Origin: an uncultured Clostridia bacterium | Lineage (GTDB): Bacteria; Bacillota; Clostridia; Monoglobales; Monoglobaceae | Assembly: GCA_947589045.1 (NCBI GenBank) | Contig: CANQBQ010000004.1 | Coordinates: 1-64,000, forward strand | DNA: 64,000 nt | Reading direction: 5' to 3' | Shown here: piece by piece, positions 26,334-59,080 of the stretch | Numbering within the stretch: position 1 is the first letter of the stretch | Layout of the letters: every line of letters starts with the position of its first letter | Program-made: the position numbers and the translations under genes | The notes under the pieces: model-generated | Seen by the model: only the letters and a program-made list of their open reading frames with translations | What the model was told of the DNA's origin: nothing | Databases searched by the model: none

Positions 26334-27635
26334 ATGGACGTTTTCAACATAGCGGATTTTGGCGCAAAAAGCGGCGGAGTTTATAAAAATACGGCAGAAA
26401 TTGCCGCGGCGATAGACGCGGCTTCAAAGTGCGGCGGCACGGTAGTGATACCGCGCGGAATTTGGCTCACCGGACCTATCACGATGAAAAGCGGCGTCAC
26501 CCTCCACGCAGAGGACGGCGCGATAGTTCGCTTCAGCGGCGACGCGGACGACTATCCGCTTGTCAAGACGGACTGGGAGGGCTCGCGCGCGCTCCGCTGC
26601 ACCTCGCCGATAAACGGCTGCAATCTGAGCGACATAGCGATAACCGGCGGCGGCATATTTGACGGCGAAGGCGGCGTGTGGCGCCCGTTAAAGCAGATGA
26701 AAGTCACCGAAAGGCAGTGGAAAAACCTCTTGGCCGGCGGCGGCTGTGTAAAGGACAGCCGCGAGGGCGGCGTGTGGTGGCCTGACGAGTACGCGGCGGA
26801 CGGCGCGAAAGTTATGAAGGAAATAGATATAGAGACTGTCAACCCGAACGACTACATAAAATACAAGCGGTTTTTCAGACCCACCCTGCTCCAGCTTCGC
26901 GAGTGCAAGGGCGTGACGTTAAAGAACGCGACGTTTCAAAACTCTCCCGCGTGGTGCCTGCACCTGTTTATGTGCGAGGACGTAAAGGTGTCCGACATTT
27001 GCGTGCGTAACCCGTGGTTCTCGCAAAACGGCGATGGAATTGACATAGAGTGCTGTAAAAACGTACTGATTGAAAATTCGAGCTTCGACGTGGGCGACGA
27101 CGCGATTTGTATGAAGTCGGGCAAGGACGAATACGGCAGACGGCTCGCCACCCCGACCGAGAATGTGGAAATTAAAAACTGCATCGTATATCACGGTCAC
27201 GGCGGATTTGTCGTGGGAAGCGAAATGTCTGGCGGCGTGCGCGACGTGCGTCTGTACGGCTGCTCGTTTATCGGCACCGACGTGGGTCTGCGCTTTAAAA
27301 GCTGCCGCGGCAGAGGCGGAGTTGTGGAAAACATCAGCATATCGGGAGTAAATATGACCGACATAAAAAACGAGGCGATAATATTCACCACCGCATACGA
27401 CGCGAACGGCACCCCCGACGACAGCACCGAGCGAAGCGAAAAAACGCCCGAATTTAAAAATATAAAAATCGAGGACGTGGTATGCGACGGCTGTAAGACC
27501 CCGATTTCGATTGCGGGACTTCCCGAGCTGCCCATTCACGACGTTGAGCTTCGCAACATCACCATAAGGAGCGCGGGTCAAATCGAAACCTCAAACTGCG
27601 AAAACCTCACACTCGAAAACGTCGAGATAATATAA
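26334..27635 (+). CDS. GH28 polygalacturonase-family glycosidase
   Basis: 433 aa, a right-handed beta-helix without signal peptide, probably an intracellular exo-acting enzyme on galacturonides from the secreted pectate lyase. GH28 motifs: NGDGIDIE, DDAICMKSG (catalytic Asp pair), and HGHGGFVVGSEMSGG. The ATG at 26334 follows AAGGAGAGAG; an upstream frame extension from 26256 overlaps the promoter. The last codons are duplicated at 29036-29064, which shows that an insertion separates this gene from its terminator. Confidence 0.93.
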   Translation: MDVFNIADFGAKSGGVYKNTAEIAAAIDAASKCGGTVVIPRGIWLTGPITMKSGVTLHAEDGAIVRFSGDADDYPLVKTDWEGSRALRCTSPINGCNLSDIAITGGGIFDGEGGVWRPLKQMKVTERQWKNLLAGGGCVKDSREGGVWWPDEYAADGAKVMKEIDIETVNPNDYIKYKRFFRPTLLQLRECKGVTLKNATFQNSPAWCLHLFMCEDVKVSDICVRNPWFSQNGDGIDIECCKNVLIENSSFDVGDDAICMKSGKDEYGRRLATPTENVEIKNCIVYHGHGGFVVGSEMSGGVRDVRLYGCSFIGTDVGLRFKSCRGRGGVVENISISGVNMTDIKNEAIIFTTAYDANGTPDDSTERSEKTPEFKNIKIEDVVCDGCKTPISIAGLPELPIHDVELRNITIRSAGQIETSNCENLTLENVEII

Positions 27636-27645
27636 CGAAAATAAT
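27617..27645 (+). repeat. 29-bp direct repeat, left copy
   Basis: It begins AAAACGTCGAGATAATATAA and covers the last codons and stop of the GH28 gene plus 10 bp. An identical copy lies at 29036-29064. The repeats flank the LRR gene. Confidence 0.9.
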
Positions 27646-27695
27646 ACACTATTTGTTGTAAATATATTTTATAATCATAAACGGGAGGCGTTGAT

Positions 27696-29003
27696 ATGAG
27701 TATTTTTACAGATAAACTCGAAATGAGCAGACGCATTGAGGAGCAGGAGAAAACCATAGCTCTGTTAAACTCGGAAATAGCCGCCCGCAAGAAAGAAATC
27801 GTCAATCTCAACTCAAAGCTCAGAGATACAGAGCGGCAAAACGCCGATTACGAAAGCCGTTATGTTAATACCGGATTGGAGTGTGAATTTTGTTATACCG
27901 TGCTTCAGGAAAATTTTTCATTTTGCCCAAAATGCGGTAAAAAAATAAACAAATCCTCCGTTCCGGCAACAGAAAAATCCGCTGCAAGTCTTTTCACAGC
28001 AGAAGACGATTTAGACGGCGCTCTCATAGTTCGCTATAACGGATTCAGCGACAAAAAAATAACCATACCTTCCTCTGTAAACGGCAAAAGGGTTATAGGC
28101 GTGTGGAACGACGTCTTTAAAAAATGCGTTGATTTGGAAGAAGTAATTTTTGAAGAAGGCTGTCAATATATCGGAAAAAATGCTTTTGCCGGATGCGAAA
28201 ATTTAAAAAAGCTCCGTCTGCCGAAAAGCTTAATCGAAATAGGCGACAGCGCCTTCAGCGGCTGCAAGAGTCTCAGCGAAGCGGCAATTCCGCCGAATGT
28301 CAGAGTGGTCGGGTCATACGCATTTGGTTACTGCACAAACCTAAAAAAGATTTTGCTTCCGGACAGTCTGCAATATATAAGCAGCGGAATGCTTAGCCAT
28401 ACGGGTATATCCGAAATTAACATTCCTCAATCCGTTTTGCATATAGGATACGGTTCATTTTCAGACACGCCGCTCAAGGAAATAGAATTGCCGCGCAATC
28501 TGTATTCGATAAACAGTTTCGCGTTTGACACTCCGTCGCTGGAAAAGATAACTATTCATTCAAACGTAAAAATAATGTGCCGTGATATTTTCAGAAAATC
28601 GGCAAAACCATTGATACAATGCGCCGCAGGTTCAAAGGCGCATCTGTACGCACGAAATTACGGACTGCCGTGCGTTGAAATTCCCGCGCAGCCGCCCGCG
28701 GATATACAAATTTGCTCAAACGGAATTATTATTGATATGAACATATTATCAAAAACAGACGCGCGCCTCAATGAGTTATGGCGCTATATCGGATTGCCGA
28801 AAGCCGCTTCGTGGTCATGGGAGCGCACAGGTATGCTTCCCACAGTACGGATTGAAAAAACAATGCCCGCCGCGGACGCGGAACTTTTGAAAAACAAGCT
28901 TTGCGCATTTCTCGGAACTCCCCAAGCCCCTGCCCGCTTCGGTCCTTTTGGGCGCGTTTCGGAGCTTGCCGTACAGCAGTACTGGGGCGAGTCGGAGGTA
29001 TAG
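27696..29003 (+). CDS. BspA-type leucine-rich-repeat protein with coiled coil and zinc ribbon
   Basis: 435 aa, no signal peptide. An N-terminal coiled coil (about 8-55, RIEEQEKTIALLNSEI) is followed by a zinc ribbon (CEFC and CPKCGKK, about 65-88). LRR_5/BspA repeats (about 125-310, such as IGKNAFAGCENLKKLRLP) come next, then a helical C-terminus. LRR_5 proteins usually mediate binding. The gene is flanked by 29-bp direct repeats and is less GC-rich than its neighbours, so it was probably acquired. GGGAGGCG precedes the ATG. Confidence 0.85.
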   Translation: MSIFTDKLEMSRRIEEQEKTIALLNSEIAARKKEIVNLNSKLRDTERQNADYESRYVNTGLECEFCYTVLQENFSFCPKCGKKINKSSVPATEKSAASLFTAEDDLDGALIVRYNGFSDKKITIPSSVNGKRVIGVWNDVFKKCVDLEEVIFEEGCQYIGKNAFAGCENLKKLRLPKSLIEIGDSAFSGCKSLSEAAIPPNVRVVGSYAFGYCTNLKKILLPDSLQYISSGMLSHTGISEINIPQSVLHIGYGSFSDTPLKEIELPRNLYSINSFAFDTPSLEKITIHSNVKIMCRDIFRKSAKPLIQCAAGSKAHLYARNYGLPCVEIPAQPPADIQICSNGIIIDMNILSKTDARLNELWRYIGLPKAASWSWERTGMLPTVRIEKTMPAADAELLKNKLCAFLGTPQAPARFGPFGRVSELAVQQYWGESEV

Positions 29004-29035
29004 CTCCTGTTTTAGTATTCAATTTAAAATATCAA

Positions 29036-29064
29036 AAAACGTCGAGATAATATAACGAAAATAA
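29036..29064 (+). repeat. 29-bp direct repeat, right copy
   Basis: Identical to 27617-27645. It restores the original GH28 gene end directly in front of the terminator at 29072. Confidence 0.9.
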
Positions 29065-29071
29065 AATTTAA

Positions 29072-29100
29072 AAATCCACCGCGACGGCGGTGGATTTTTT
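29072..29100 (+). terminator. Rho-independent terminator (original GH28 terminator)
   Basis: AAATCCACCGC pairs with GCGGTGGATTT, loop GACG, then a T-run. It follows the duplicated GH28 tail by 7 bp. Confidence 0.85.
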
Positions 29101-29132
29101 ATATGTTTCCCATATGATTAAAGTCCGATTTT

Positions 29133-29451
29133 TTAAGCAAACACACCTTTGCACAGCTTTTCAATCATCTGCTCGCTCCAAACAGCGTTGGGAACGGTCA
29201 CCAGATTTCCGAATTGCCATTTCAATATCATTGAAGGCTCCCCTTCGTTTCGGTCGATAGAATTGTCAAATACATAAAGCTCATCGCATATATCAAACAG
29301 CCGCTTCAAGCGCCGTACATTTTAAATGGCGCTGAATTTCATCCGCATTGACATAATCGCCAATCGGTTTAAACTGTGAGTTTTCGGATATAACCGAACT
29401 TTTGCCCGAGCCGTTTGGTCCGGCAATAACCAAAAGGATGGGGAACTTCAT
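29133..29451 (-). pseudogene. Zeta-toxin kinase remnant with internal deletion
   Basis: The N-terminal 46 codons read MKFPILLVIAGPNGSGKSSV...YVNADEIQRHL, the Walker A P-loop start of zeta-type toxins. A stop follows ALEAAV. In another frame the typical C-terminal end resumes (RLFDICDELYVFDNSIDR...EPSMILKWQFGN) to a stop at 29133. The central kinase portion is missing. The sequence CTTGAAGCGGCT at the break fits both halves, so deletion through microhomology is likely. It starts 8 bp after the antitoxin stop, so it was the toxin of that pair. Confidence 0.75.
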
Positions 29452-29458
29452 AAGGACA

Positions 29459-29770
29459 TTACTCCCTTCTGTTGTTTATTACAATCGGTTCATTTGAAAC
29501 GGGGTCTAAATAGGTAAATCGGTGCGGTATGCCGGTATTGTCGGGATTGGCGATTGCCTTCTTTATTGAAGTCTCTAATTGTCCCGCATCCATAATCGGT
29601 ACAGATTGCGCGCTTGCCGGCGCTACAACACTGAACGGAAATCCTTGGTTCGCGACAAACCTTTTTATAAATATATTCACCGCCGTACTCAACGGAATTC
29701 CTATTTCACTTGCTATTTTATCTGCGTCTCGTTTGACAGAATCTTCCACTCTCGTTGATATTATAGCCAC
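29459..29770 (-). CDS. RelB/DinJ-family antitoxin
   Basis: 103 aa. The N-terminal ribbon-helix-helix is visible (ISTRVEDSVKRDADKIASEI, then GIPLSTAVNIFIKRFV and the family end GFPFSV). The GTG at 29770 lies 9 nt after AAAGGAGG and gives a protein starting at the conserved domain, so I prefer it to the longer frame from 29905. Its toxin gene downstream is broken. A RelB/DinJ-type antitoxin paired with a zeta-type kinase is seen in clostridial genomes. The antitoxin could still repress its promoter or cross-neutralise another toxin. Confidence 0.8.
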   Translation of the reverse strand: MAIISTRVEDSVKRDADKIASEIGIPLSTAVNIFIKRFVANQGFPFSVVAPASAQSVPIMDAGQLETSIKKAIANPDNTGIPHRFTYLDPVSNEPIVINNRRE

Positions 29771-29921
29771 TTCTTTCTTCCTCCTTTGAACCGGAGCGTC
29801 CCCCTTGTCTTTCCTCTCTCCAATCGTTCCCCCGTTACGATTGTTTTTAAAGTCGGTTATATCCGTTTGTCTCTCGCTCCGATACAACATATACATTATA
29901 TACATTGCTTTTTATATTTTT

Positions 29922-58730: not shown

Positions 58731-58807
58731 AAAAAAATGCATAACAACATTTACGAAGTTATGCATCCCAAAAACGCACGACTTCCAAAATGCTACCACA
58801 CATTCCT
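58731..58807 (-). promoter_or_regulatory. Attenuator-like leader element, copy A
   Basis: On the minus strand a conserved stretch (AATGTGTGGTAGCATT...TTTTTGGGATGCATAAC) ends in the hairpin TGCATAAC/GTTATGCA and T7, just before the AbrB ribosome-binding site. A 14-codon frame (MCGSILEVVRFWDA) spans the element and stops inside the hairpin. Confidence 0.55.
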
Positions 58808-58831
58808 TAACATTCCAAATATTTCGATTAG

Positions 58832-58889
58832 GATAAGTTTAGGGTTAAAGTCAGCGCCTAAGGCAAGGCTAACTTAAACTAATCGAAAA
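58832..58889. repeat. Large imperfect stem-loop
   Basis: TTCGATTAG pairs with CTAATCGAA around inner complementary blocks (AAGTTTAGGGTTA against TAACTTAAAC-type sequence). It lies between the two leader copies; no gene is present in 58707-59166. Confidence 0.5.
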
Positions 58890-59008
58890 AGTTTTCCATA
58901 TTCGGTTTGTTAAAGAATTGTGGTATGATTAAAGATTATCATAATTACGCGGTTTTGTAAAGTGCTTTTCGCAAGTTTCGACATACAGATTACGACATTT
59001 TTCAAAAC

Positions 59009-59080
59009 AAAAAATGCATAACAACGTTACGAAGTTATGCATTCCAAAAACACGCGGCTTTAATGCTACCACACATTCCT
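59009..59080 (-). promoter_or_regulatory. Attenuator-like leader element, copy B (no gene attached)
   Basis: About 85 per cent like copy A by eye, with the same AATGTGTGGTAGCATT start, the hairpin TGCATAAC/GTTATGCA and a T-run. Its short frame reads MCGSIKAACFWNA. It is followed by noncoding sequence, so it may be a terminated small RNA. Confidence 0.5.

Follow-up and report, generated by a model that had tools for sequence, protein, structure and literature searches.

A 1.4-kb segment with a single LRR gene, flanked by an exact 29-bp repeat of a GH28 gene end, in an uncultured Clostridia bacterium

An accessory LRR gene stands between a GH28 (pectinase-type) gene and a strong terminator, and the DNA that carries it is flanked by two perfect copies of the end of the GH28 gene. 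We read this arrangement as the insertion of LRR-bearing DNA with a 29-bp duplication, by a one-off illegitimate or break-repair capture in a plastic slot of the genome, and give this reading a probability of roughly 0.6. The locus is ordinary in kind: it adds one more case of an inserted accessory gene, set apart by a perfect duplication of unusual length.

The repeat pair, the insert and the junction it interrupts

The direct repeat, AAAACGTCGAGATAATATAACGAAAATAA, is exact, with 29 of 29 positions identical, and its copies at 27616-27644 and 29036-29064 lie 1420 bp apart. The first point to note is where these copies stand. The upstream one, on the plus strand, is made up of the final GH28 codons, the TAA stop (27633-27635) and the 9 nt that follow; the downstream one, also on the plus strand, is non-coding and stands directly before the terminator, separated from it by 5 nt. 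The original prediction had described an exact 29-bp duplication of this gene end that recurs before a strong terminator, and in this it was right, although the start it gave was one base off. Within the window, by which we mean the whole 64-kb stretch of DNA analysed, this is the longest exact direct repeat, the runner-up measuring 20 bp. In first-order Markov sequences for the same 10-kb region (200 trials), the longest repeat averaged 12.9 in length and never exceeded 15. The Markov trials and the ranking of repeats in the window together rule out a chance origin. A dispersed repeat family, to which the second copy might have belonged, is likewise ruled out, as a whole-genome search allowing up to three mismatches returned only these two copies in 1.8 Mb. 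At the same threshold the congener described below contains no copy. Inverted repeats within the 29 bp are at most 4 bp long, and neither a tRNA nor an Rfam RNA was found at the insertion site. Elsewhere in the window, at 58732-59080, there is an imperfect direct repeat of ∼75 bp, spaced by 273-277 bp.

The GH28 gene itself (26334-27635, plus strand) is intact. It encodes 433 aa from its ATG, matches Pfam Glyco_hydro_28 with E=4.9e-37, and its product has a 94% identical counterpart in the congener. The terminator at 29070-29099 is intrinsic and bidirectional, with a 13-pair stem and T tails on both strands. When one repeat and the 1391-bp insert are removed, the GH28 stop lies 14 nt from this terminator, compared with a median of 17 nt for the 17 genes of the genome that have a strong terminator; the expectation that such a removal recreates a normal junction was thus borne out. 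The 66 nt that separate the LRR gene from the terminator are the longest such spacing. On this spacing test, the terminator is probably the original one of GH28. Its ancestral placement behind that gene is unproven, because no terminator follows within 200 nt in those GH28 homologues of a sister genus whose stop could be located where the gene ends.

Beyond the terminator, on the minus strand, lies a broken P-loop ATPase gene (29110-29460, with the motif AGPNGSGKSS), which in a reading of the frames by eye resembles a zeta-toxin-type kinase with an internal deletion or frameshift. Next to it is a RelB-type antitoxin gene (29459-29905, minus strand; Pfam RelB, 27.8 bits against a cut-off of 22.4). 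Taken together, 29110-29905 resembles in sequence a decayed toxin-antitoxin remnant.

The DNA between the two repeat copies (27645-29035, plus strand, 1391 bp) contains a single ORF. This is an LRR_5 (BspA-type) gene by Pfam, located at 27696-29003 on the plus strand and encoding 435 aa, with a probable ribosome-binding site, GGGAGG, read in the sequence at 27683-27688 on the same strand. The protein is laid out as a coiled-coil-like N-terminus, a weak zinc ribbon match, the LRR_5 part and a C-terminal domain of ∼106 aa, and its sequence is related to those of BspA-type LRR proteins with solved structures, 4fs7 among them. The GC3 of the gene is 0.47, against 0.68 for GH28, 0.61 for GH43 and 0.63 for rho, and a search of ∼390 other genomes of the class gave no convincing homologue of the C-terminal domain, the one 23% match being broken by stops. 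As a result of this lower GC3 and the isolated C-terminal domain, the LRR gene looks foreign both compositionally and phylogenetically, as far as sequence can tell. Searches of phages, plasmids and viral contigs for the cassette or its donor yielded generic LRR_5 matches only, none of which covered 80% of the protein.

We also considered whether the insert has the marks of a known class of small mobile unit. Neither the insert nor those neighbouring genes that were scanned include a recombinase or transposase gene, in agreement with the earlier remark that a transposase is lacking. The suggestion of a non-autonomous cassette is a different matter and stands unproven: no other part of the genome matches the insert DNA, so that a second copy bearing the same ends is lacking, and its ends carry no terminal inverted repeats, the longest inverted match between them being of 8 nt and out of register. 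MITE-like and passenger-carrying non-autonomous transposons do resemble the locus in their transposase-free cargo with a flanking target-like duplication, but differ from it in these same two respects. An integron gene cassette offers the likeness of one gene per inserted unit; in contrast, the repeat at this locus has no attC-like dyad, the scanned genes include no integron integrase and the gene upstream is unrelated.

The genome is in 39 contigs and is probably metagenome-derived, a setting in which an assembly or binning artefact has to be weighed, although we consider one very improbable here. In this genome, contigs break off 72-77 nt into a repeated insertion sequence, which implies an assembly word length of ∼77. 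A word of this inferred length is far above 29 bp and would span the repeat, so that collapse at the repeat is unlikely, and the insert is embedded in an 89-kb contig. Strain mixing at the locus is a separate possibility.

The slot behind GH28 and other LRR genes of the genus

The comparison genome, G001 (CANRNL010000001.1, uncultured Clostridia MAG Lapin-021), is the sole congener found. It has no LRR gene behind GH28. Its homology to the window breaks off precisely at the stop codon of GH28 (between ATATA and G), and the first 19 nt of the upstream repeat copy are conserved. At this same stop codon begins an island of 7.35 kb (G001:C1:31320-38672), unrelated to the insert, which contains an AAA+ ATPase gene and genes without known family; synteny resumes at window position ∼31837, before a Sir2 gene. 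With a different insert from the same stop codon and no LRR gene in the congener, the stretch from GH28 to Sir2 is a plastic slot, whose contents differ between the two species. That two insertions touch one stop codon hints at a preferred site. The empty site that the original prediction proposed to look for in relatives was not seen: the LRR gene is indeed absent from the one congener, but a different insertion takes its place, and for this reason no clean empty site can be read there. No genome was found, one congener being available, in which GH28 is directly followed by this terminator; in the expected empty-site junction, GH28-R would be joined directly to AATTTAAAAATCCACCGC. Nor did a relative carry the LRR gene at the same site with unrelated flanks.

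The main rival to our reading is site-specific integration at the 3′ end of the gene, which we regard as possible but unlikely. The recombinase of a small circular element, or of a larger one of which only a remnant is left, would then have used the GH28 3′ end as attB, and the two repeats would be the resulting attL and attR. The element would bring its own copy of the gene end, GH28 would stay whole and the displaced end would stay at the terminator. The layout of the locus suits this well, with a duplicated gene end, an intact gene and a displaced copy that adjoins native downstream DNA, and the unrelated island of G001 also begins at this stop codon, as would be expected of an attachment hotspot. 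A precedent exists in the ∼50-bp att repeats of ECC at rlmH (PMC6222049). The SCC/ECC elements at the rlmH 3′ end share with our locus the accessory DNA at a gene 3′ end, the repeats that contain the gene end and the intact gene. However, the locus lacks a ccr recombinase, or indeed any recombinase gene in the part scanned; it comprises 1.4 kb and one gene rather than a large island, and its repeats are of 29 bp rather than ∼50 bp, with no dyad. The island of G001 moreover ends without a second copy of the gene end, the best match at its right end being 17/29, a score reached by 10.6% of shuffles, and so lends no support to an attachment-site model.

A further alternative reverses the order of events. 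The LRR gene would already have been present, and template switching or gene conversion would have placed a copy of the 29-bp GH28 end 1.4 kb downstream. Templated copying of short stretches is a known process, and the adjacent broken P-loop gene indicates that small rearrangements have happened here. Nevertheless, such a copy would explain neither the restored 14-nt spacing nor why the LRR gene looks foreign, and the acquisition of the LRR gene would be needed as well, so that we find this order of events improbable. Insertion is favoured by the combination of the restored spacing, the foreign-looking gene and the absence of that gene from G001. We therefore prefer an insertion to a repeat copied afterwards, and a one-off non-autonomous capture to the movement of a dedicated element; as G001 has an insertion of its own at that stop codon, the direction in which the locus changed can only be inferred.

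Other LRR genes of the genus were also compared between the two species. On contig 6, an LRR gene with its own terminator (L086 6798-8462; G000:C6:14797-16461) lies inside a 2.09-kb segment (L086 6482-8570) flanked by a 12-bp repeat, TGATTATTTTTG. This segment is absent from G001, in which the two flanks adjoin each other (L094, reverse strand). It could be a gain in one species, or a deletion between the repeats in the other. The presence of the segment in one species and its absence from the other shows that, within the genus, individual LRR genes are gained or lost between short flanking repeats, with no mobility genes alongside. As a long shot, a trans-acting recombination system not described so far might have single LRR genes as its passengers, dropping them behind genes near terminators and duplicating the gene end; the GH28 site and the contig-6 LRR gene would then be two of its products.

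Two further repeats near LRR genes were tried as analogous cases and rejected. The first is a pair of 54-nt terminators on contig 6, 94% identical (L086 8476-8529 and 9645-9698), which stand behind successive LRR and Gfo/Idh/MocA oxidoreductase-like genes. This repeat is a terminator shared by two genes rather than the trace of an insertion. The second of the two terminators is an IS target in the congener, and, separately, a short remnant similar to both IS ends is present at the right end of the contig-6 LRR segment. The other case concerns two LRR genes on contig 1, 14.3 kb apart, which have leader and signal-sequence DNA in common (L082 5355-5508 and 19661-19814; G000:C1). Each of these two places is occupied by an LRR gene in the congener too, with segments exchanged, and this exchange is gene conversion.

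A resident insertion sequence with long target duplications

Both species contain a multicopy insertion sequence (L097-L146; G000:C4:89182-89258) with the ends TGTAGGTTTGTCAATG...CTATTGTAAACCTACA. Its target duplications measure 25-26 bp in 17 paired flanks. Its right end lies ∼30-32 nt before the −35 hexamer of a sigma-70 promoter of the form TTGACA-N17-TATAAT: a promoter score of at least 10/12 was obtained for 15 of 25 right flanks (60%), compared with 0.46% of 5000 controls and 16% of left flanks. Duplications of 16-28 bp, with no target known, have been described for the IS1202 group (PMC10132070), and a second source gives 24-29 bp (PMC10045372). The resident element fits this group in its TGT...ACA ends and in the length of its duplications, as does the HTH N-terminus seen in a truncated copy from Monoglobus; with its catalytic domain not seen, it is a candidate member. 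Insertion upstream of promoters is a possible target rule for long-duplication IS1202-like elements. The placement of IS duplications directly upstream of a −35 element is a finding more general than the LRR locus.

These elements also bear on the length of the repeat at the GH28 locus. The original prediction held 29 bp to be longer than most IS target duplications. Whilst the length is unusual, it carries less weight than it first seemed to, as duplications of the IS1202 group reach 28-29 bp, and those of the resident element, at 25-26 bp, come close. The 29-bp repeat might on this account be the target duplication of the resident element or of a derivative, a reading to which we attach next to no weight. 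The insert does not have TGTAGGTTT...AACCTACA ends, the duplication is of 29 rather than 25-26 bp, and the site lacks the promoter that the element targets, scoring 7/12 where IS sites average 9.8 and controls 6.7. On its ends, its duplication length and its target, we have rejected the resident element as the cause. The likeness of the locus to IS1202-group elements in general (PMC10132070, PMC10045372) is one of duplication length, which falls in the same range; the insert differs from them in having neither a transposase nor TGT...ACA terminal inverted repeats.

A possible course of the capture and its consequences

In the reading we prefer, that of a one-off capture, a 1.4-kb piece of DNA with one accessory LRR_5 gene and its own leader would have been inserted between GH28 and the terminator. 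At the AT-rich gene end, the target would have been cut with a 29-bp stagger or opened by strand exchange or invasion; a linear piece of DNA with the LRR gene would have been joined in, and fill-in repair would have given each side its copy of the 29-bp gene end. Illegitimate or microhomology-assisted insertions resemble the locus in their short flanking direct repeats, the lack of a mobility gene and the plastic slot, and the contig-6 LRR gene, with its 12-bp repeats and a clean counterpart in G001, points the same way. However, a perfect duplication of 29 bp is long for such events, and the donor was not found among the sequences searched.

The two repeat copies are 100% identical, compared with a divergence of 7% between the GH28 region and that of G001. 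An insertion that predates the species split would be expected to show ∼2 differences, and the identity weakly suggests that this one is younger than the species split.

The duplicated part includes the last codons and the stop of GH28, and the gene has accordingly stayed intact. It would have lost its adjacent terminator, which would now serve the LRR gene, and GH28 may be co-transcribed with that gene. Since the 60-nt leader of the LRR gene contains no strong promoter consensus, its expression may depend on read-through from GH28.

A long flanking repeat does not by itself identify a mechanism, and the locus is a caution in this respect. Strains with the empty site, if found, would make it possible to decide directly whether break-repair capture or site-specific integration took place. 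For the biology of the organism, the locus is a snapshot of an accessory gene added behind a metabolic gene without damage to that gene.
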